NCBI GenBank assembly: GCA_900552415.1
Contig: USAD01000079.1
Span: 1 to 10,283, forward strand
Length of the DNA: 10,283 nt
Origin: an uncultured Parabacteroides sp.
GTDB taxonomy: Bacteria; Bacteroidota; Bacteroidia; Bacteroidales; Tannerellaceae
Reading direction: 5' to 3'
This document shows, piece after piece, positions 1,388 through 10,283 of this stretch. Numbering within the stretch: the stretch's first letter is position 1; the number at the start of each line of letters is the position of its first letter. A model generated the notes under the pieces. It did not search any database. It had not been told where the DNA came from and saw only the letters and a list, made by a program, of their open reading frames with translations. The position numbers were made by a program, and so were the translations under genes.

Positions 1388-1494
1388 ACTCAGATGTAGG
1401 TATTTCTTGATAATCTCTGATCCTAAAAAGACACTAGGCGTGACTGATGATGAAAACGCTCCGTTTCTCCGATACGAATCTCAGGGATTTTGTG

Positions 1495-1502
1495 TATGTT
1501 CG
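1495..1502 (+). promoter_or_regulatory. Weak candidate -7 element for the lipoprotein-folK operon
   Basis: TATGTTCG matches the Bacteroidetes -7 pattern TAnnTTTG with one mismatch and would give a leader of roughly 35 nt before the ATG at 1546. No convincing -33 TTTG is seen at 19-21 bp upstream, so this is tentative. Confidence 0.25.
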
Positions 1503-1533
1503 CGCCATAAGGAAAGTAAGAACAATTAAAAAT

Positions 1534-1540
1534 AGGAGGA
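1534..1540 (+). promoter_or_regulatory. Ribosome binding site that fixes the lipoprotein start
   Basis: AGGAGGA lies 5 nt before the ATG at 1546. It is a strong Shine-Dalgarno sequence, notable in a region where most other genes lack one. It favours the ATG at 1546 over the in-frame ATG at 1447, which would place 33 unrelated residues in front of the signal peptide. Confidence 0.7.
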
Positions 1541-1545
1541 AAATA

Positions 1546-2037
1546 ATGAATAAGCGTGTCGCTCTTTGGTCGTTTTTTGTGGTGATGATGTTGTGCTGCT
1601 GTTTCTCATGCCAAACGAAATTGGATGATTTTGTCTTTACTTATTCGTTGGAAAGTCCGGGAAACTATAAGATCCAGGTTTCTTTTGATGACCAGAAGAA
1701 CTATAAGGTTGAGCGTTATAATTATTTCATGGACAACTTTGCCCGTAAAAGGGATCCGAAAATCCTGGAAGGCACATTGACCGACGGGGAATTCGAACAG
1801 GTTCGTGCCGTTTTAGGGGAAGCCCGTATTTTTGATATGAAAGACTCGTATGGGTTTGAGAAAGAGGTGAGCAGTAAGGATATGGGTGAGGTCCTGACAC
1901 AAGTTTACCTGAAATCGGAAGGTAAGGAAAAATACATCTCCATCCGTGATATGATGAATGAGAAGTTCCCGCAAGGCTACATTAAGTTGGTGAAATTCAT
2001 CAATCAGTTTTGTGTGGATCATCCGGTCGATGAGTAA
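1546..2037 (+). CDS. Hypothetical lipoprotein (163 aa)
   Basis: I do not recognise the family. The N-terminus MNKRVALWSFFVVMMLCCC is a lipoprotein-type signal: a basic n-region, a hydrophobic core and a terminal Cys at residue 22 in CFSC. The mature protein would be lipid-anchored, and the following QTKLDD is compatible with the acidic surface-export signals described in Bacteroidetes. The mature part is a small soluble domain rich in charged and aromatic residues (for example YKVERYNYFMDN) with no metal or catalytic motif that I can see. The stop and the folK start share one base (TAATG at 2035-2039), so the two are probably cotranscribed and translationally coupled. Nothing ties its function to folate. 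Confidence 0.85.
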   Translation: MNKRVALWSFFVVMMLCCCFSCQTKLDDFVFTYSLESPGNYKIQVSFDDQKNYKVERYNYFMDNFARKRDPKILEGTLTDGEFEQVRAVLGEARIFDMKDSYGFEKEVSSKDMGEVLTQVYLKSEGKEKYISIRDMMNEKFPQGYIKLVKFINQFCVDHPVDE

Positions 2038-2453
2038 TGGAAAATATTGAGGAAACGAACGAGTTGATCCTCTGTCTTGGATCGAACCGGGAACGGGAAT
2101 GGAATATAGGGCGTGCGGCGGAACGGCTGTGCGCTTCTTTTGTTTCCGCACGTTTCGCTCCGGCGGTTTATACGACTCCGGTTGGGTGCGCCTCCACGAT
2201 CCCATTCCTTAATCAGGTTGTCATAGCCTATACTTCATGTTCCATTGAGGAATGCCGGCGATTGATCAAGTCGATAGAGGCAGAGTTGGGCCGGACCGCC
2301 TCGGATAAGGCGGCCGGACGTATTCCGATCGATATCGACTTGTTGTGCTGGAATGGCCAGGTGCTGAAAGCCGATGATTGGGCACGTGGCTATGTCGCTG
2401 ATGGTGTGCGTTATTTATTGGGGCCGACATCTTCCAGAACCGGACGTAAATAG
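2037..2453 (+). CDS. folK: 2-amino-4-hydroxy-6-hydroxymethyldihydropteridine diphosphokinase (HPPK)
   Basis: Cytosolic folate-pathway enzyme that transfers pyrophosphate from ATP to 6-hydroxymethyl-7,8-dihydropterin. The family marks are LGSN at residues 14-17, YTTPVGC at 45-51, FLNQVV at 57-62 (pterin-binding region) and PIDIDLL at 97-103. The two Asp residues of IDID (99, 101) match the Mg-binding pair of HPPK. At 138 aa it is somewhat shorter than the E. coli enzyme (about 159 aa). The arginine-rich ATP loop is only partly recognisable (GRTASDKAAGR). The last ten residues (GPTSSRTGRK) look like an unselected tail, because they are encoded antisense to the end of licD. The start overlaps the lipoprotein stop by one base. 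Confidence 0.88.
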   Translation: MENIEETNELILCLGSNREREWNIGRAAERLCASFVSARFAPAVYTTPVGCASTIPFLNQVVIAYTSCSIEECRRLIKSIEAELGRTASDKAAGRIPIDIDLLCWNGQVLKADDWARGYVADGVRYLLGPTSSRTGRK

Positions 2454-3295
2454 GCCGCGTGGGTCGATATCCGTTTTTCTGGTGGCGGAGGTGTCATGTA
2501 GTTCTTCCCATATAATTGGGAAAGATAGGCATCCGCGTTATTGGGTCCATAAAATGAATGGCCCTCGAATGTGTACTCACGTAAGGGGAAAATCTCCTCA
2601 TAAGCGAAGTAACGGCGCCAGGGGGTATCGAATCCATGCCCGATCAAGCAATCCTTGTCTAATTGCAAGTTCGCTTTAGCCTGTTTGACGGCTTGGCGCA
2701 GGTAACGTTTTGCCAGGACCCGGAGTAAAGGCTTGGAGTAGGATACGACTCGTTTGGCAAGCGAGTGCTGTTTGTCCAGTTCCGCGTCCAATCCTTTGCA
2801 AAGCAGGTAAAAATAGGTCTTCGCTTTTTGCTCTTTCCGCAATATCTCCGGTTGGCGATGATAACGGTCCGCGGGGAAGATATCGATGAAGAGTCCCATC
2901 TGATATTTCTTTTTCTCTATTCCGGTGGAGATGATCAGGCTTTTCTTGTCCCGTATCTTGCAAGGAAGGGCGAGATAGTCGTAATTCGGATCGGTCTCGC
3001 GGGTTTGCAAGAACAGGTCTGATGGTAGTTCTTGTTGGGCAATTTGGATAAAACGATCATAATCTTCACGGATCATGCAAATGTCCAGGTCGTCGTCCCA
3101 AGGAATAAAACCTTGATGCCTGACCGCTCCCAGCAGGGTGCCAGAACACATCCAGTACCGCAAGTGGTGCTCGCGGCAGATGTAGTCTATGATCTTAAAC
3201 ATCCTGGTCATGACCAGCTGCGCCTGGCGTAGGATGGTCTCGCCCGATTTACGATTGTCCGGGAACAATTGATCGAAATCTGTCATGGTTTTCAT
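2411..3295 (-). CDS. licD: LicD family phosphotransferase
   Basis: Predicted cytosolic enzyme that transfers a phospho-substituent from a nucleotide-activated donor (classically phosphocholine from CDP-choline) to a glycan. At 294 aa it has the normal family length. The N-terminal part carries GTLLGAVRH (residues 52-60) and PWDDDLDI (65-72), the hallmark nucleotidyltransferase-fold motif with the metal-binding Asp cluster. The C-terminus has the family ending YGKNYMTPPPPEKR followed by a His. The start at 3295 overlaps the wzx stop as ATGA, a translational-coupling arrangement. MTDF at residues 4-7 offers an alternative start. It is the last gene of the polysaccharide operon and converges with folK over 43 bp. 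The real substrate need not be choline. The neighbouring LicC-like transferase would supply the activated donor. Confidence 0.88.
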   Translation of the reverse strand: MKTMTDFDQLFPDNRKSGETILRQAQLVMTRMFKIIDYICREHHLRYWMCSGTLLGAVRHQGFIPWDDDLDICMIREDYDRFIQIAQQELPSDLFLQTRETDPNYDYLALPCKIRDKKSLIISTGIEKKKYQMGLFIDIFPADRYHRQPEILRKEQKAKTYFYLLCKGLDAELDKQHSLAKRVVSYSKPLLRVLAKRYLRQAVKQAKANLQLDKDCLIGHGFDTPWRRYFAYEEIFPLREYTFEGHSFYGPNNADAYLSQLYGKNYMTPPPPEKRISTHAAYLRPVLEDVGPNK

Positions 3296-4539
3296 TTGGT
3301 TTTAAATAGATGAAATCGTCGTATGCCCGCGGCCCTGAAGCAGATTAACAAAGACTCAGAGAAGACCACCATCATCGCGACAGTCGTCGTGTCGAGGGCT
3401 GAGCAAAGATACAAAATAAATAGACCGGTTATATGTACGATCGACGTAATAACGATGGTCCAGTTCGTGTAATGAGGATGTCCCATGGCCGCCAGGAAGG
3501 GATAACCCATTAACATTGATGGAATTGTGACGAAACATCCGCTAACCAGGACCAGATAGACCGATTCTATATTCGGGTCTGCCGTGCCATAGACGATCTG
3601 TAGCACGATAGAGGACAACGCTAAAGCTGCCGCGACACAGAATATATTCGCGAAAGAGATCCTGTAGAATATCTTTTTGAAGAAACCGACGTCGCGGCTC
3701 TTCGCGATATGCGGGAAGAGGACGCCGGTAAAAGGTGTCAGTAATTGGTTATAGGCCTGATAAAGCTTCTCTGCCGCGGAATAGTAACCGACAGCCGTAT
3801 TACCGCAAACCAATCCGATCAGGAATGAGTTGCTGGTCGTGAAGAGCGAGGTGGATGCTCTCGACAGGAAATACATCGAACTTTCCCGTAAAGCCTCTTT
3901 TAACCCTTTTAACGTAGGCCAGTACCAACGCATATCCATCTTGGCGTAGACAATATACAGGCTGACCAGGCCGGCCAGCACAAATCCGAAGCTGTAGCAT
4001 ACCGGAACCAGCATATAGTCTTCCGGTTTCCGGATGAATATGAAGAAAGGTATGAAGCTCAGTGATTTGGCGATAATGTTGAATACCGTGATGTATTTCA
4101 TGTTTTCCATGCCCTGGAAAAACCACATCGGGAACATGACGTTGCCGATGATGATACCGAAATAGAGCAGATAGAAAAGGGCATCTGTCCGGAACTTATC
4201 GAATCCTCCGATCAGGATGAGCAGGATCAACAGGCTGACAAGGCAAAGCAGGAAACGCCCCGTCATGGCGCTGTTGAGGTAATCGTTGATCGCTTTCGGG
4301 TCGCTCCGGTGCTGCGAGATGTATTTGGTGGCCGACAGGTTGAACCCGAAGTCGGTGAACATCACGAAATATTGCATCAACGAATAGCCGAAGGTGACCA
4401 ATCCCCAGCGCTCCACACCCAATACCCGGAACAGGAAAGGGAATGAGATCAGGGGCAGGAGGTAATTGACCCCTTGCAACAATACCAGCGAGATGAAATT
4501 GACCGCCATCGGGCTTTTAAGCTTCTGTTTGATCGCCAT
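3292..4539 (-). CDS. wzx: Wzx-type polysaccharide/O-antigen flippase
   Basis: Integral inner-membrane protein of the MOP superfamily (Polysacc_synt type) that translocates undecaprenyl-linked repeat units to the periplasm. At 415 aa it has about twelve hydrophobic segments. The N-terminus reads as a typical Wzx start: amphipathic MAIKQKLKSPMAVNFIS, then LPLISFPFLFRVLGVERWG. The central FPMWFFQGMENMKYI and SFIPFFIFIRKPEDY motifs are also typical. The ribosome binding site AAGGAGG (4545-4551) overlaps the stop of the upstream dehydrogenase gene, with a 10-bp gap between the genes. Its stop overlaps the licD start. Its presence identifies the operon as a Wzx/Wzy-type surface polysaccharide locus. 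Donor specificity cannot be read from the sequence. Confidence 0.92.
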   Translation of the reverse strand: MAIKQKLKSPMAVNFISLVLLQGVNYLLPLISFPFLFRVLGVERWGLVTFGYSLMQYFVMFTDFGFNLSATKYISQHRSDPKAINDYLNSAMTGRFLLCLVSLLILLILIGGFDKFRTDALFYLLYFGIIIGNVMFPMWFFQGMENMKYITVFNIIAKSLSFIPFFIFIRKPEDYMLVPVCYSFGFVLAGLVSLYIVYAKMDMRWYWPTLKGLKEALRESSMYFLSRASTSLFTTSNSFLIGLVCGNTAVGYYSAAEKLYQAYNQLLTPFTGVLFPHIAKSRDVGFFKKIFYRISFANIFCVAAALALSSIVLQIVYGTADPNIESVYLVLVSGCFVTIPSMLMGYPFLAAMGHPHYTNWTIVITSIVHITGLFILYLCSALDTTTVAMMVVFSESLLICFRAAGIRRFHLFKTK

Positions 4540-4549
4540 GCTATCCTCC

Positions 4550-5674
4550 TTATCCTAGATCACGTAAGTCATCGATGGTCCGAATGTTGTAGTTCGCTAA
4601 AACCGCCGATTGGGCAATATCCCGGCCATTCAGCCCGGTGTCTGTCAGGTATTCCCGTCCCATGCGTCGCTGTGTCCAGCGGATCACCTGGTCGATCATA
4701 GGGGTCGGTTGGCCTAACAATGCTCCAAGCGACTTGATGATCAATAGTCCGTATGGGATATCTTCCGTGAAATAACGGTTCGAATAGTCTACCACATAGC
4801 CTTTCTCTTGTGGCGTCATGCACATCTTGATGCCCTTGAAGGCGACAATGGAGCGAATTTTGCGTGTCAACGAAACCTCGTCTGTTGATTCGTAATAGGA
4901 TAACAGAGAGGGGATTTCCTCTTGGCGGACAGGCAAGGCACGCAGCATGGCCTGGAATTCCTCATCGCACTCGATCAGCACCTTCGAGCTGAAATCGTCC
5001 CACTCCTCATAGAACAGGATCTCATGGTCATACAAATCGCCCTCAATAGGCGAGAGCATACCATAAATACGCGACGGATGCAAGAGCGGATTGCTGTTGG
5101 TCAAGGCCGCTTCCAGATAATGGCCCAAAGGATAGGTTGGGGTCGACAGCGCGTCGCTGAAGAACCCGGCGAGTCCTTGCAGGTCGCTATGACGATTGCC
5201 GCCTATTTTTAAGGAGGACTTATAACCCTTCAGGTCGGCCGCTTGCCCGTAGCGGGTTACCCGGCTGATGAACGGGACCCGTTGGAAACCGAACAAGCGT
5301 CTGCCTTCGCCCAACAGGTGACGGGCCATCCAGAAGAAGCCGCTGCTGCTTACGACGGAGCCGATCTCCTGTTGTGGCCCGACGAATGGGGCAATTTGCT
5401 TCAGGACCGGTTCGATCATGTAGCCGGGAACGCATAAAAGGATCACGTCTGAAGAGGGAATAACCTCCTCGGGGTGGTTGGAGGCCTGGTGAATCGTCCC
5501 ATGGATCACCTGCCCCCGACAGTCCGTAACATCCAGGTGGTTGGACCACTTCTCGGGATGACCGGTCAGCAAGTTGACCCGGTAACCCCGGTTGCTGGCG
5601 CTGGCCGCTATGGTATGGCCGAGGCTTCCGCCTCCGCAAATGCAGATCGTCTGAAAATTACACATACACTCCAT
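4550..5674 (-). CDS. NAD(P)-dependent octopine/nopaline dehydrogenase-like oxidoreductase
   Basis: Predicted opine dehydrogenase family enzyme: reductive condensation of an amino acid amino group with an alpha-keto acid, or the reverse. At 374 aa it has an N-terminal Rossmann fold with GGGSLG at residues 14-19 and the hydrophobic strand SSDVILLCVPG (75-84). The all-helical octopine-dehydrogenase domain follows and carries TNSNPLLHP (192-200). His199 aligns with the conserved substrate-binding His of the family. The start at 5674 is chosen because the Rossmann motif follows directly; M4 is an equally possible start. The gap to the preceding aminotransferase is 9 bp, and to wzx 10 bp. Its location inside a polysaccharide operon suggests synthesis of a glycan substituent such as an N-(1-carboxyethyl) amino acid. 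That role is inference. The enzyme class is fairly secure and the substrate is unknown. Confidence 0.82.
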   Translation of the reverse strand: MECMCNFQTICICGGGSLGHTIAASASNRGYRVNLLTGHPEKWSNHLDVTDCRGQVIHGTIHQASNHPEEVIPSSDVILLCVPGYMIEPVLKQIAPFVGPQQEIGSVVSSSGFFWMARHLLGEGRRLFGFQRVPFISRVTRYGQAADLKGYKSSLKIGGNRHSDLQGLAGFFSDALSTPTYPLGHYLEAALTNSNPLLHPSRIYGMLSPIEGDLYDHEILFYEEWDDFSSKVLIECDEEFQAMLRALPVRQEEIPSLLSYYESTDEVSLTRKIRSIVAFKGIKMCMTPQEKGYVVDYSNRYFTEDIPYGLLIIKSLGALLGQPTPMIDQVIRWTQRRMGREYLTDTGLNGRDIAQSAVLANYNIRTIDDLRDLG

Positions 5675-5683
5675 GTTTAAACC

Positions 5684-6850
5684 TTAAAAACAGGACAATG
5701 CCTCAGTCAACCGATCGTTGTCGCGCTGGTCGCGGATAGCGATCCGGATGTATTGCCGGCCATTGAAACCAGCCTTAGTCGCGCAGTTCTTGATCAGGAT
5801 ATCCTTCTCTAGCAAGGCCGCGCATAGTTTTTCCGACGTGAAAGGTGGTAAGACCTCGCACAGGAAATAATTGGCTTCTGATGGGATCACCCGCAAGAAC
5901 GGGATCTTCCTCAAATTATTCTGGAACCGCTCGCGTTCGGCCAGGAACCGCTCGCACGCCCGGTTATAGTCTTCCTTGTATTTTATGAATATCTGCATAT
6001 AGAACTCGGCGAACGAGTTGATATTCCAGATTGAGATCTCCCGCTTCATGGCCTCGATCAGTGAACGGTCGCCCGAAGCGAGGAACCCGAGTCGTAATCC
6101 GGGTACGCCGTATGATTTCGAGATGCTCTTGATGACGACCAGGTGCGGATTCTCGTCGAGCAGTTCCGTATTGAGAAGCGACAGCCGGTTCTCCGGATGC
6201 GCGAAGTCGAGGAACGACTCGTCGACGATCAATCGGATGCCCTCCTGGCGGGTCCAGTCGATGAGCGAGAGCAACTCGGCTTTCGATAACAGGTTACCCG
6301 ATGGGTTGTCGGGGTTGATCACGATCAGCTGGCGGATGCCCTTGTCGCGGAAAAAGGCAATAAGGTCGGAGCTGGTGTAACTGAAATCACCGTTGTCGGG
6401 CAGGTAAGGGATCCGGTGCTCCGGTTCCAGCCGGTTGGGATACTCCTCGAACGTCGGCAGCGTGATACCGGTCGGGCAGGAGGGGAACACACGGGTGTAG
6501 GTGTTGATCAACTCCGCCGCGCCATTGCCCACGATAATCTGTTCCGGATGTATGTCGGCATAGCGTGCCGCCAGTTGGGCGTTGACCCGCATGCCGGAAG
6601 GGTATTCCGTCAGCAACGTGTCGAAATTGGACTTGATCTCCTCTTTCAACCGTTTGTTCGGGAAATAGGGATTCACCAGATAACAGAAATCCTTCAGCTT
6701 CGGATACCGCCAGTAACCGCCGTAGCGGCTCTGCAGCAGCTTCAGCTGCGTCTCGTCATCCGGCGCCTGTAGAGCGAGAGCGCCTGATCGCTCTCCGCGA
6801 AGAGCGCCTCGGCGTTGTTCAGGTCTTGCTGGTCGTCGATCTCGTACCAT
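5684..6850 (-). CDS. HisC/CobD-like PLP aminotransferase, apparent 3' half of a frameshifted fusion gene
   Basis: Class I/II fold-type I PLP enzyme. In this frame NPDNPSG (residues 179-185) and VDES (209-212) bind the cofactor. The Schiff-base lysine is Lys245 in SKSYGVPGLRLG (codon 6116-6118). The early segment GGYWRYPK...NPYFP and VGNGAAELI resembles the histidinol-phosphate aminotransferase/threonine-phosphate decarboxylase group. The ATG at 6850 lies deep inside the nucleotidyltransferase gene, and the first 25 or so residues are an arginine-rich out-of-frame shadow of it. Genuine protein appears from about QAPDDETQLK (6769 leftwards). No good independent start exists there, and the next Met is well inside the domain. 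I therefore read it as the C-terminal domain of a nucleotidyltransferase-aminotransferase fusion broken by a small insertion. As it stands, efficient translation is doubtful. Confidence 0.8.
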   Translation of the reverse strand: MVRDRRPARPEQRRGALRGERSGALALQAPDDETQLKLLQSRYGGYWRYPKLKDFCYLVNPYFPNKRLKEEIKSNFDTLLTEYPSGMRVNAQLAARYADIHPEQIIVGNGAAELINTYTRVFPSCPTGITLPTFEEYPNRLEPEHRIPYLPDNGDFSYTSSDLIAFFRDKGIRQLIVINPDNPSGNLLSKAELLSLIDWTRQEGIRLIVDESFLDFAHPENRLSLLNTELLDENPHLVVIKSISKSYGVPGLRLGFLASGDRSLIEAMKREISIWNINSFAEFYMQIFIKYKEDYNRACERFLAERERFQNNLRKIPFLRVIPSEANYFLCEVLPPFTSEKLCAALLEKDILIKNCATKAGFNGRQYIRIAIRDQRDNDRLTEALSCF

Positions 6851-7527
6851 TTCTCAGTCCCGATAACCAGGGCTTTCAGGTCCGGTTTGTTCAAGAGCGA
6901 GATCACCTTCAGAACCTGCTCATAATATTCATTATTGCCCAGGGCCTTGCAGTAAGCCACAAGGAACGGGACATATTTGTTGCGTGAGAATTCCTTGCTG
7001 AACTTATAGATATTGACCGTCTTATAGTAGGAATTCTTTTGGTCGAACTGGAATGCCTTCTTGGCGATGAAATTGGAAATGCGGTTTTCCTCGTCGAGCG
7101 TGACGACGGTACCGTCCATCCAGCTCTCATATTTGGCGACCACCGCCAGGTTGGGCGCCGGGTCGTTCACCAGTCGCGGCAGGATACTGTCGGCGAAGAT
7201 CAGGTCCGACTCGAGCAGGATCGTCTCATCCTCCACGAGGAATTCTTTCGCCAGGTAGAGCGAGTAGATGTTGTTTGTCTTGTCGTAGATCGGGTTCGAG
7301 ATGTAGATGATGGGCGTATTGTTGATCTTGTTACCCAGCAAATCTCTCACTTTCTCGCCTTTATAGCCAATCACGATGATGATCCGTCTCAAGTCGAGGC
7401 GTTCCAACTGCCCGATCATGCGTTCGATCAAGGTTTGCTCGTGCACTTTGACCATGCACTTCGTGTTCTCGCGGGTCAGCTCACCAAGGCGCTTACCCAT
7501 TCCTGCCGCTAGGATGATTGCTTGCAT
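6742..7527 (-). CDS. LicC-like sugar/choline-phosphate nucleotidyltransferase, apparent 5' half of a fusion gene
   Basis: Cytosolic NTP-transferase fold enzyme expected to activate a phosphorylated small molecule or sugar, most plausibly with CTP as in LicC. The N-terminus MQAIILAAGMGKRLGELT is the classic nucleotide-binding signature, with Lys23 after it. ESDLIF (106-111) holds the metal-binding Asp108, and EIDD (229-232) gives the second acidic site. NPIYDKTNNIYSLYLAKEF (78-96) is typical of the LicC-like subgroup. The real domain ends near NNAEALFAESDQA. The last dozen or so residues (LSLYRRRMTRRS) look like a frameshift tail that ends at an out-of-frame TGA. The start is 5 bp after the stop of the upstream membrane protein gene, implying coupling. 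Together with the aminotransferase downstream it would form one polypeptide. Confidence 0.88.
   Translation of the reverse strand: MQAIILAAGMGKRLGELTRENTKCMVKVHEQTLIERMIGQLERLDLRRIIIVIGYKGEKVRDLLGNKINNTPIIYISNPIYDKTNNIYSLYLAKEFLVEDETILLESDLIFADSILPRLVNDPAPNLAVVAKYESWMDGTVVTLDEENRISNFIAKKAFQFDQKNSYYKTVNIYKFSKEFSRNKYVPFLVAYCKALGNNEYYEQVLKVISLLNKPDLKALVIGTEKWYEIDDQQDLNNAEALFAESDQALSLYRRRMTRRS
6764..6786 (-). repeat. CAGGCGC direct repeat bracketing a 17-bp frame-breaking insertion
   Basis: On the minus strand CAGGCGC begins at 6786 and again at 6769, exactly 17 bp apart. Removing one copy plus the intervening bases leaves GAT CAG GCG CCG GAT. This joins the nucleotidyltransferase frame to the aminotransferase frame without a stop and gives one ORF of 608 residues (7527 to 5684). 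The inserted segment also contains CGCTCTC (6776-6782), a perfect inverted copy of GAGAGCG at 6789-6795. This is compatible with a quasi-palindrome or template-switch origin. Confidence 0.75.
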
Positions 7528-7532
7528 ATCTT

Positions 7533-8609
7533 TTATTTTTTCATTGTTATTTTGCTAGACGCGCCTTTTTCCGAAATCGCTGCAAGCTCCCTCTTTTGCT
7601 CGGCGCAAAGCAGGCCGAGGAAAACCATCATGAAGAAGCCGCGGTTACTCGTGAAAGTCGCGTCGGCGATATTCTCGATTAGTATATATCCGATTATTAA
7701 TGTTACGATCACCAATGTACGGGTTTGCTGGGTCCTCATGAAGAAAAGGGCCGCTTTCCTGAAGATGTAGATCCAGAAGAAGATGAACAAGAGTACACCC
7801 GCCATGCCAAACTGGGCCAATGAGGGGTAATAAGTGTTCGCTATGAACTTATGATAGGTCCTGGAAAGGCCCCAGACCGTGTCGATCCCGTATTCCTCGT
7901 AGATACCGGAATAATATTCGCCGGAGGCATGCGTCGCGAAACTGGCCAGGCCGCTGCCGAAGGGGAAATAATCCTTCAGGATATCGATGGAGGTGGAATA
8001 AAGCACGAAACGGGCCAGGAAGTCTTGTTCGTTGTTGCCACCTTCAGCCTGGGCGGTTATTCCTTCGATAAAGTAGATCTCGATTTTTTGGTAGGCTACC
8101 GCTATGACGACCGCAAACAGCAATAGGAGAGCCATGAGGTTCTTGAAATTCAACTTGATATGTTTGGCGTTGCTGGCGTAAAGGATCATGAATCCCGCCA
8201 GGGCGAAGAACCCGTAGAATTTTGACCGTCCGGAGGCGATACCTAATGCCAGCATGATCAGGAAGATGATCCGGTCGCGGGGCGTATAGTCACTGCAATA
8301 GAGGTAAACTAAAGAGGAGGCCACGATCGCTGCCGCGAAACAGGAGGGATGTCCCATCACGGTCCACAAGATATTGTCGTTGACAAATCCCGCTATACCC
8401 AAGGGAACCAGCAGTACCCAAATGGCCACGGCGGTCTCTTTCAGGAGGTTCTTTTGGTTCTTGTCGAGTTGGGGCAGCAACTGGTAGGTGCAGAAAAAGG
8501 CCAGATAGGGCTTCATCTGGATGATGAGGTCGGTCGCGATCGCCTTTTTCGTATTGCTGCCGATCCAAATGGAATAGCCAACATACAACATGAACAGGAA
8601 CAGGGTCAA
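7533..8609 (-). CDS. O-antigen polymerase/ligase-like membrane protein, 5'-truncated
   Basis: Multi-spanning membrane protein with about nine hydrophobic segments, of the O-antigen ligase/polymerase (Wzy/WaaL-like) type. The family-like stretch is ARFVLYSTSIDILKDYFPFGSGLASF-like: an Arg-led helix leading to PFGSGL, after a periplasmic-type loop. Reading in frame upstream of the nominal TTG start at 8609 adds NYKEWPVNKAFLL before a TAG at 8649-8651. That stretch still looks like native coding sequence, so the true N-terminus (probably one or two membrane helices) has been lost at a junction near 8640-8650. Other internal starts are ATG at 8591 or later. It would be the first surviving gene of the operon, 5 bp before the nucleotidyltransferase, with no promoter of its own visible. 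It is probably non-functional. Polymerase and ligase cannot be told apart by sequence alone. Confidence 0.78.
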   Translation of the reverse strand: MTLFLFMLYVGYSIWIGSNTKKAIATDLIIQMKPYLAFFCTYQLLPQLDKNQKNLLKETAVAIWVLLVPLGIAGFVNDNILWTVMGHPSCFAAAIVASSLVYLYCSDYTPRDRIIFLIMLALGIASGRSKFYGFFALAGFMILYASNAKHIKLNFKNLMALLLLFAVVIAVAYQKIEIYFIEGITAQAEGGNNEQDFLARFVLYSTSIDILKDYFPFGSGLASFATHASGEYYSGIYEEYGIDTVWGLSRTYHKFIANTYYPSLAQFGMAGVLLFIFFWIYIFRKAALFFMRTQQTRTLVIVTLIIGYILIENIADATFTSNRGFFMMVFLGLLCAEQKRELAAISEKGASSKITMKK

Positions 8610-8636
8610 CAGGAAAGCTTTGTTGACGGGCCACTC

Positions 8637-8651
8637 CTTGTAGTTGATCTA
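8637..8651. other. Rearrangement junction between truncated polymerase gene and OmpA fragment
   Basis: Coding signal for the membrane protein (minus strand) runs rightward to about 8648. OmpA-like coding signal (plus strand) starts at about 8644-8650. Both genes lack their 5' ends here and are oriented head to head, so no promoter or start region separates them. This is expected after a deletion or inversion that removed both gene starts, or at a misassembly point. Confidence 0.65.
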
Positions 8652-8841
8652 CAATATCGGAACTTTCATGAAAAACAACCCGGATGTCAAAATCCGCATC
8701 GTAGGTTATGCCGATAAATTCGGTCCGATCAATGTAAATCTCCGGATTTCACAAGAAAGAGCCGAGGCTGTCGCCAATATGTTGAAAAAAGATTACGGCA
8801 TCAATTCTAACCGGATGGTTATCGAATATGTAGGTAAAGAA
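8644..8841 (+). pseudogene. Internal fragment of an OmpA-family peptidoglycan-binding domain
   Basis: The frame from 8644 encodes YNIGTFMKNNPDVKIRIVGYA then DKFGPINVNLRISQERAEAV and YGINSNRMVIEYVGKEK. This matches the OmpA C-terminal fold: a helix ending in KNNPDV, the GYAD strand with its peptidoglycan-binding Asp, then LS..RA..V, and a final strand. The style is that of Bacteroides major OmpA-like proteins. An in-frame TAG precedes it at 8641-8643, so the beta-barrel or N-terminal part is missing. After VGKEK the expected C-terminal motif (NDWNRVVIF-like) is absent, so the 3' end is lost too. About 66 codons remain. The open frame to 8964 past this point is not OmpA-like. It is a gene remnant, not an expressed protein. 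Confidence 0.75.
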
Positions 8842-8903
8842 AAAGAGATAATAGAAATATTTATTGACAAATTGCTGTACCATCCGTACGTTTGTTTGTT
8901 ATC

Positions 8904-9009: not shown

Positions 9010-9519
9010 TTACATTTCCATCATGTCAAAATACATGAGTCTGGTATGTTTGTCGTTATCTTCGGAAACTAGCATTTTGAAGCCATTTCTTTCGTAAAAT
9101 GGGATGGCAGAGAGATAAGCGTCTACAGTAAGGAAACGGAATGTAGAGTAGGTCTCTTCCGTATTTAGAATATGTTTAAGTGCCCACATTAATTTGGATC
9201 CAAGACCTGAATGATGATATTTTACGGAAACAGCAAAACGGCCGATTTTAATGGCCGGATAACTATTAAAGTGTTTCTTGTGAGGAAATTGTTTTTTGAC
9301 TTTCCTCCAAGCGGCATTGGATGCTTCTATGCGTGAGATTTTATCGTTGAATAAGCAGAAATAGGCTGCGATGTGATCGTTGTCCATTAATAGAAAGGTA
9401 TTACCAATACGTTTATTTATAAAGTTCTTAGCATCTTCTGTTAAGAAATTGTTTAAATCCGTATCGTCGCAATTGAAAGGTTTTAGTTCGTAATCGCTTG
9501 TCAATTTAATTAGTTTCAT
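9010..9519 (-). CDS. GNAT family N-acetyltransferase, possible TA toxin
   Basis: A 169-aa GNAT-fold protein. The layout resembles the TacT/AtaT type: an N-terminal FNCDDTDLNNFL (15-26) as in the F.c....LN.fL.. segment of that group, then RFAVSVKYHHSGLGSKL (94-110) with the acetyl-CoA pyrophosphate loop HHSGLG. The C-terminal AIPFYERNGF (138-147) has Tyr142 at the position of the proposed catalytic Tyr. Such toxins acetylate aminoacyl-tRNA, but substrate and toxicity here are inference. The start at 9519 lies 14 bp after the stop of the small upstream gene, with no clear Shine-Dalgarno. The gene is markedly more AT-rich than the polysaccharide genes to its left, suggesting separate acquisition. 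Confidence 0.88.
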   Translation of the reverse strand: MKLIKLTSDYELKPFNCDDTDLNNFLTEDAKNFINKRIGNTFLLMDNDHIAAYFCLFNDKISRIEASNAAWRKVKKQFPHKKHFNSYPAIKIGRFAVSVKYHHSGLGSKLMWALKHILNTEETYSTFRFLTVDAYLSAIPFYERNGFKMLVSEDNDKHTRLMYFDMMEM

Positions 9520-9533
9520 GGTTGTTTTGAATT

Positions 9534-9698
9534 TTAGGTATGGTTTTCTGAGAATAAATCCATGAACGCTTTTTTTGCCCTTTTGCGATTTTTTTCTCGT
9601 TCCTCAGGACTCATCCGTTCGGTTTGTTTCATCTCCTTGTCGAAGCGGATCGCATCTTTGCCATGTAATATGGGGGTTTCTCTAATAGGTCTGGCCAT
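9534..9698 (-). CDS. Small charged protein (54 aa), putative antitoxin partner of the GNAT
   Basis: Starts MARPIRETPILHGKDAIRFD and continues as a Lys/Arg/Glu-rich, probably helical segment with MSPEEREKNRKRAKKAF. From memory, proteins with this MA(R/K)PI.ETP.L.GKDA.RF pattern occur next to GNAT genes in Bacteroidales, which fits an antitoxin or DNA-binding partner. It is not the ribbon-helix-helix (DUF1778) type that accompanies TacT. The ATG at 9698 is preferred to the in-frame upstream start at 9833. The extra 45 residues have low-complexity Ser/Thr character, begin inside a repeat array and would read through the likely promoter. The leader is A-rich, typical for the phylum. Confidence 0.72.
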   Translation of the reverse strand: MARPIRETPILHGKDAIRFDKEMKQTERMSPEEREKNRKRAKKAFMDLFSENHT

Positions 9699-9728
9699 TT
9701 TTTTCTTTGTTTTTAATTTAATATACCG

Positions 9729-9736
9729 CGAAGATA
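9729..9736 (-). promoter_or_regulatory. Candidate -7 element for the small protein-GNAT pair
   Basis: TATCTTCG on the minus strand is one base off the Bacteroidetes -7 consensus TAnnTTTG and lies about 30 bp before the ATG at 9698, giving a short A-rich leader. The -33 position shows only a weak match. Confidence 0.4.
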
Positions 9737-9823
9737 GCGAAAATGAAGATATAACAGGTTGTTTAGTTGATAAAATTAAGTTGTTTTTACTATAGCGTGT
9801 AGTGGTACGCAACAGTGTGGTTG

Positions 9824-9885
9824 AAAATTTCACTGCAGTGCGTTTGGAATTTCACTGCAGTGTATTGGAAATTTCACTGCGATGG
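9824..9885 (+). repeat. Palindromic CACTGCAGTG box array (3 copies, 22-bp period)
   Basis: TTTCACTGCAGTG-type boxes start their CACTGC core at 9831, 9853 and 9875, exactly 22 bp apart. The first two carry the perfect 10-bp palindrome CACTGCAGTG. The third is degenerate (CACTGCGATG). Each is preceded by an AAATTT or GGAATTT stretch. Palindromes two helical turns apart would suit cooperative binding of a dimeric protein, though this is only inferred. Confidence 0.75.
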
Positions 9886-9942: not shown

Positions 9943-10030
9943 CCGGAAAGGATTGGGGTTTTCTCCGGAAAGGACTGGAGTTTGTTCCGGAGAGGACTGG
10001 AGTTTGTTTCGGAAAGGACTGGAACTTATC
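9943..10030 (+). repeat. Tandem repeat, four 22-bp units (CCGGAAAGGACTGGAG type)
   Basis: Units at 9943-9964, 9965-9986, 9987-10008 and 10009-10030 share a CCGGAAAGGA(C/T)TGG core followed by a T/G-rich tail. The second and third differ at one position, and the outer units are more degenerate. A related degenerate unit lies at 9889-9910, and traces continue after 10030. There are no unique spacers, so this is a tandem repeat and not a CRISPR array. Confidence 0.85.
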
Positions 10031-10095
10031 CTGAGGGGAATAGAATAAACTTGTGAAGAAAACTTGAATGGACTGATATCATATTGTATTTGATT

Positions 10096-10283
10096 ATGGG
10101 AAGAAGTGTTAGTTTTTTCAATTATTTGAGATGCCGTGTCGAGGCTAAGCGTTCGACGGGGCGATTTAGTTCTGTGGATTTGTATCGGGCGGCCGGAAGG
10201 CATTTCCGGGCCTATTTGGGCAAGGACTGCTCGTTGGCGAGAATCACGTCGATAATGGTTGATGATTTTAAGAGTTATTTAAA
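10096..10283 (+). CDS. Probable tyrosine recombinase/site-specific integrase, N-terminal part
   Basis: The open frame from ATG 10096 runs off the window after 62 codons: MGRSVSFFNYLRCRVEAKRS, then SSVDLYRAAGRHFRAYLGK, then SLARITSIMVDDFKSYL. The pattern of a helix, T/S-x-Y/L-x-x-A, xxF..YLGK and I(T)..MVDDFKSYL is that of the SAM-like core-binding domain at the start of Bacteroidetes tyrosine recombinases. The catalytic R/H/R/Y domain is outside the window, so the call rests on the N-terminal pattern only. It is transcribed away from the repeat arrays. Such recombinases often sit beside capsule loci in Bacteroides and Parabacteroides and invert promoters. Confidence 0.65.
   Translation, partial: MGRSVSFFNYLRCRVEAKRSTGRFSSVDLYRAAGRHFRAYLGKDCSLARITSIMVDDFKSYL

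Follow-up and report, generated by a model that had tools for sequence, protein, structure and literature searches.

An apparent gene split in a Bacteroidales polysaccharide locus is very probably an assembly mistake

The two nearest solved relatives of the nucleotidyltransferase (NTase) considered here are 1jyk, a CTP:phosphocholine cytidylyltransferase, and 6pd1, which matches it at 7e-11 and is named a class V aminotransferase; we take PDB entries 6pd1 and 6pd2 to be the PntC of T. denticola. In PntC-AEPT (6pd1/6pd2; PMC6697681), an N-terminal LicC/MobA-like NTase is fused to a PLP enzyme, and the same architecture is found in a gene of our window, the 10,283-nucleotide stretch of DNA that was analysed. 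The PLP enzyme of PntC-AEPT is, going by the name of 6pd1, a class V aminotransferase, whereas the C-terminal half of the window gene is of class I/II and lies nearest to threonine-phosphate decarboxylase-like structures (6oux, 4e-44; 1lc5, 8.3e-35). No PEP mutase domain was detected among the 13 window ORFs that were scanned with Pfam, the window covering part of the locus only, and given this and its PLP class the gene was not assigned to the PntC-AEPT phosphonate cytidylyltransferases. The NTase-CobD-like fusions of Bacteroidales polysaccharide loci, single chains of about 602–606 aa such as P0002 and P0004, have the same domain order and residues as the window gene, which contains both domains in order (Pfam; alignment to P0002); they are intact, whereas the window copy is broken by foreign DNA and read in two frames. 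Single-chain proteins of about 600 aa with this domain order do exist, as a preliminary description of the window had stated. No paper listed in a literature search dealt, going by its title, with this fusion.

The window would be a contig stretch from a Parabacteroides-like bacterium, probably of metagenomic origin, and it would cover a surface-polysaccharide locus with folK, licD, a flippase, an octopine-dehydrogenase-like gene, the NTase-aminotransferase fusion and wzy. Because a LicC/MobA-like NTase and a threonine-phosphate-decarboxylase-like PLP enzyme occur there together with licD (PF04991, Pfam), the sequences suggest that the intact fusion protein would make and CMP-activate a small phospho-amine for transfer to polysaccharide by LicD.

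A second kind of described system is an artefact: chimeric contigs formed through k-mers common to genomes are a documented error of metagenome assembly (PMC7299287). The inter-genome chimeric contig resembles the window in that one contig holds more than one genome, and one of the window's joins lies in DNA common to genomes. It is one end-to-end join, however, whereas the window carries two short internal patches, which are more like wrong gap filling. The apparent split of the fusion gene is, in our assessment, very probably an assembly mistake in which DNA of other organisms was spliced into the fusion gene and wzy (Table 1).

Table 1. Features of the fusion gene and wzy, in positions of the window
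Feature	Position	Strand	Basis or remark
Aminotransferase ORF, CobD/HisC-like PLP domain, 388 aa	5684..6850	minus	Window ORF list; Pfam Aminotran_1_2, 4.1e-32
Foreign patch 1, from the homologous fusion gene of another lineage (family B, P0121–P0147)	6659..6766	minus	36/36 residues identical
32-bp stretch with an identical copy in L035/L114 (one genome), a MAG labelled Akkermansia	6660..6691	minus	Exact shared word
NTase ORF (MobA/LicC-like NTP transferase), 261 aa, forming the 5' part of the fusion gene	6742..7527	minus	Window ORF list; Pfam NTP_transf_3, 8.3e-12
Two CAGGCGC copies	6763..6786	minus	Copy at 6780–6786 native; copy at 6763–6769 straddles the join
wzy-like polymerase gene, interrupted	7533..8885	minus	Aligned to L109, where the gene is intact (426 aa); Wzy_C, 3.9e-7, 30.4 bits (slightly under the Pfam cut-off of 31.7 bits)
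Foreign patch 2, antisense fragment of an OmpA C-terminal domain, ~190 bp	8637..8830	plus	PF00691, 3.6e-11

The NTase and aminotransferase ORFs share 109 bp, which they read in different frames, and each has a start codon, as would be expected if two genuine, separate proteins were encoded by overlapping genes. Homologous loci speak so uniformly against such an arrangement that we give it almost no credence. Of 539 confirmed loci the best 80 were fetched; by an alignment-based count, a single open frame spans residues ≤15 to ≥585 of P0002 in 78 of these, the gene is cut by contig ends in the other two (L040 and L049), and none of the 80 has two ORFs; this upholds the earlier view that the two ORFs are parts of one fusion gene, and the opposite case that it had named, homologues occurring as two separate proteins, was not seen. 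Proteins matching the aminotransferase ORF are mostly 602–606 aa long with both domains, and 111 of the 120 listed (the best 120 of 7999 scored) have at least 590 aa. The nine shorter ones begin at eight different points in the chain, which also argues against a separate aminotransferase, and they look like truncated gene calls; moreover, the first 28 residues of the window's aminotransferase ORF are NTase sequence read out of frame.

The closest genome found, that of locus L109, falls into one genus group with a P. distasonis genome. Its locus is collinear with window positions 1488–8636 at 74% DNA identity and carries an intact 602-aa fusion gene (at 4324–6132), and 14 of 38 genomes of its genus carry the fusion gene as a single open frame, at 15 places among the matches listed. 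In one genome of the Parabacteroides group, G013, the fusion gene matches in two pieces (G013:C110:3-1298 and G013:C56:11886-12302), the larger of which starts at base 3 of its contig.

Compared to the intact P0002 (602 aa), the window gene shows 4 mismatches in the first 253 residues of the NTase, while its aminotransferase ORF is identical from residue 54 onwards (335/335 residues, to the C-terminus). Between these flanks, window positions 6659–6766 (about 108 bp) encode APDDETQLKLLQSRYGGYWRYPKLKDFCYLVNPYFP, where P0002 differs. These 36 residues were found whole in 27 of 358 collected proteins, the members of family B. All 27 carriers continue with PKKMKDEIR and none with the window's NKRLKEEIK. 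The window's 20 residues downstream of the patch occur only in P0001 and P0002 among the 358 proteins, and a 25-residue segment upstream of the join is confined to P0002. Since both flanks match P0002 and the middle 36 residues match family B, the order along the gene, as read from these matches, is native, foreign, native.

The two joins of patch 1 are of different kinds. The lower crossover lies within about 6659–6691, where both families share DFCYLVNPYFP, and the exact 32-bp match to another genome makes this stretch a likely assembly switch point, a k-mer-sized bridge. The upper join, at about 6766–6770, is out of register, which breaks the frame and creates the second CAGGCGC; a long shared word was sought there in the fetched loci and reached 12 bp at most, and a simple k-mer switch therefore fails to account for this side. 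The NTase ORF is native to about 6770, and the residues just before its stop are an out-of-frame reading of foreign DNA. In the aminotransferase ORF, residues ~1–28 derive from the native NTase part, residues 29–64 from the patch, and native sequence begins at residue 65. The Arg-rich NTase tail and Arg-rich aminotransferase "shadow" pointed out previously both come from translation in the wrong frame to the two sides of the junction.

The preliminary description had attributed the split to a 17-bp insertion between direct repeats, with a slipped-strand switch or an assembly error as further options. On recomputation, its positions, the 109 bp that the ORFs share in two frames and the pair of CAGGCGC copies 17 bp apart all proved exact. 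The copies are present with that period (17 bp start to start, 10 bp between them), which is what an insertion or a phase-variation switch between CAGGCGC repeats would call for. However, exact 7-mer pairs 7–30 bp apart also occurred in 92 of 509 stretches of 109 bp taken in a sliding series along the window, some of them in tandem repeats, and in 591 of 5000 mononucleotide (base) shuffles of the overlap. Because such pairs are this frequent by chance, the CAGGCGC pair is a chance similarity without statistical weight. The length does not fit either: the window fusion gene has 1844 bp against 1809 bp in L109, an excess of 35 bp, and in a profile against L109 identity falls to 0.20 with 35 unmatched bases at 6731–6780. 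Furthermore, the 108 bp from the lower repeat past the conserved GGYW belong to another gene family. Collapsing the 17-bp interval had been proposed to give a 608-residue protein with a natural linker; counted on the quoted text and the window ORF, this form has 20 residues between "..LF" and "GGYW", a spacing not found in nature among the 327 collected proteins with both motifs, where it was 12 (2 proteins), 14 (230) or 15 (95); the 31 of 358 proteins without a motif match fall outside this count. An insertion or slipped-strand switch is accordingly an extremely improbable account of the split, and the gene was not classed as a slipped-strand phase-variable gene, as the sequence beside the repeat comes from another family and the excess is 35 bp; among the options first listed, assembly error is the one best supported here.

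The profile against L109, which covered window positions 1481–8900 in 50-bp steps, had only two strong breaks, one at patch 1 and the other at about 8681–8830, where identity was 0.08–0.36. We did not count milder dips as patches; examples are 0.48 at 1781 and, in a gene boundary at 5631, 0.50 with 11 unmatched bases. The second break lies in wzy, whose body occupies 7533–8636 and whose native 5' end lies at about 8830–8885. L109 aligns on both sides of the patch, up to 8636 and again from 8828, and the 5' end of wzy resumes at about 8828–8889 with 80.6% identity to L109 over 62 bp, so that the patch stands in place of about 100 bp of the gene. Best matches of the OmpA fragment were 38–52% identical per genome in 9 relatives of the Parabacteroides group, and its source was not found among those 9 genomes. 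Words shared with the fetched loci at the joins were 13 bp at most. Judging from its sequence, patch 2 cannot have been placed by homologous exchange, because it is antisense and nonhomologous to the wzy segment that it replaced.

At both patches, native sequence thus gives way abruptly to that of another lineage and then resumes. We propose that the assembler filled 6659–6766 with about 108 bp of a different organism's homologous fusion gene, and the stretch from 8637 to about 8830 with about 190 bp from an OmpA gene, which is unrelated. Each patch would have replaced about 70–100 native bases and disrupted the open frame; the organism itself would most likely have both the fusion gene and wzy as intact single ORFs. 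Misassembly is favoured because two unrelated, short, frame-breaking fragments lie within 2 kb of each other in 7 kb that are otherwise collinear with L109. We infer that the joins were made in assembly, by gap filling, a graph-path error or k-mer path switching, and not in the cell.

The same structure could in principle be a natural mosaic, in which the cell itself took in short pieces of foreign DNA and so lost the function of the fusion gene and of wzy, with a changed surface polysaccharide as the result. Possible routes would be microhomology-mediated filler DNA, or template switching together with homologous exchange at the conserved DFCYLVNPYFP. Polysaccharide loci recombine and lose genes, and the lower join of patch 1 does lie in a stretch conserved enough for exchange; yet this course of events would need two independent captures less than 2 kb apart, from two donors, of about 100–190 bp each and with replacement of native DNA, and patch 2 is not homologous to the sequence whose place it took. 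It would also have to be very recent, since the flanks are nearly identical to the intact P0002. We consider a natural mosaic very unlikely, and likewise a living bacterium in which a natural filler-DNA mutator acts on polysaccharide genes, the patches of ~108 and ~190 bp inactivating the fusion enzyme and Wzy. If the mosaic were real, it would mean that surface-polysaccharide genes can take up very short stretches of DNA from other species.

As to the donor of patch 1, the family-B protein P0131 was compared with several sets of genomes. Relatives were 57–68% identical in 7 genomes of the fetched loci and 56–61% identical in 18 further genomes, and the best match was 70% in 115 genomes of one family. 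Across 391 genomes of the class the best match among those listed was likewise 70%, a miss of little weight. The same low weight attaches to the absence of hits among the matches listed for 392 genomes of an order in that class (E ≤ 1e-290) and for 393 genomes of the Parabacteroides order (E ≤ 1e-230), since in all three of these comparisons no more than three candidates were scored for any genome listed. Viral contigs held relatives at 50–60% only, and the window itself had no near match among plasmids and phages. Family B's own genome and DNA were therefore not found in the genomes searched with P0131, where the nearest relatives stand at 70%. Spo0A was present in three of five genomes with family-B relatives (G533, G532 and G645), which suggests that the donor may come from another phylum. 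It was not found in G431 or in G703, one of the two best family-B matches, nor in either of two Parabacteroides-group genomes; in a control set of 14 genomes, the signal appeared only in Bacillus subtilis.

In keeping with misassembly, other database forms of the fusion gene also look chimeric when their sequences are aligned. P0001 differs from P0240 by 1 mismatch as far as residue 251, after which it keeps to the window, again with 1 mismatch, until its end. In P0003, likeness to the window starts only at aminotransferase residue 132, near the PTFEEYPNR motif, and in P0245 a similar NTase is coupled to a protein with a PF00834 domain; the switches in P0001 and P0003 appear to lie near conserved motifs. 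These three proteins could serve as examples for chimera detection. The present case calls for caution more generally, as frameshifted "pseudogenes" and "phase-variable" sites described from a single contig may be wrongly filled gaps.

Elsewhere in the window, a GNAT acetyltransferase gene (9010–9519) adjoins a small ORF (9534–9833) in an order that presumably resembles a GNAT toxin-antitoxin pair; PADLOC returned no match for either. Two 22-bp tandem repeat arrays, at 9813–9880 (3.0 copies) and 9943–10023 (3.7 copies), lie upstream of an incomplete tyrosine recombinase. Positions 10084–10283 encode a SAM-like domain, the N-terminal one of a phage-type integrase (PF13102, 9e-8), which runs off the window.
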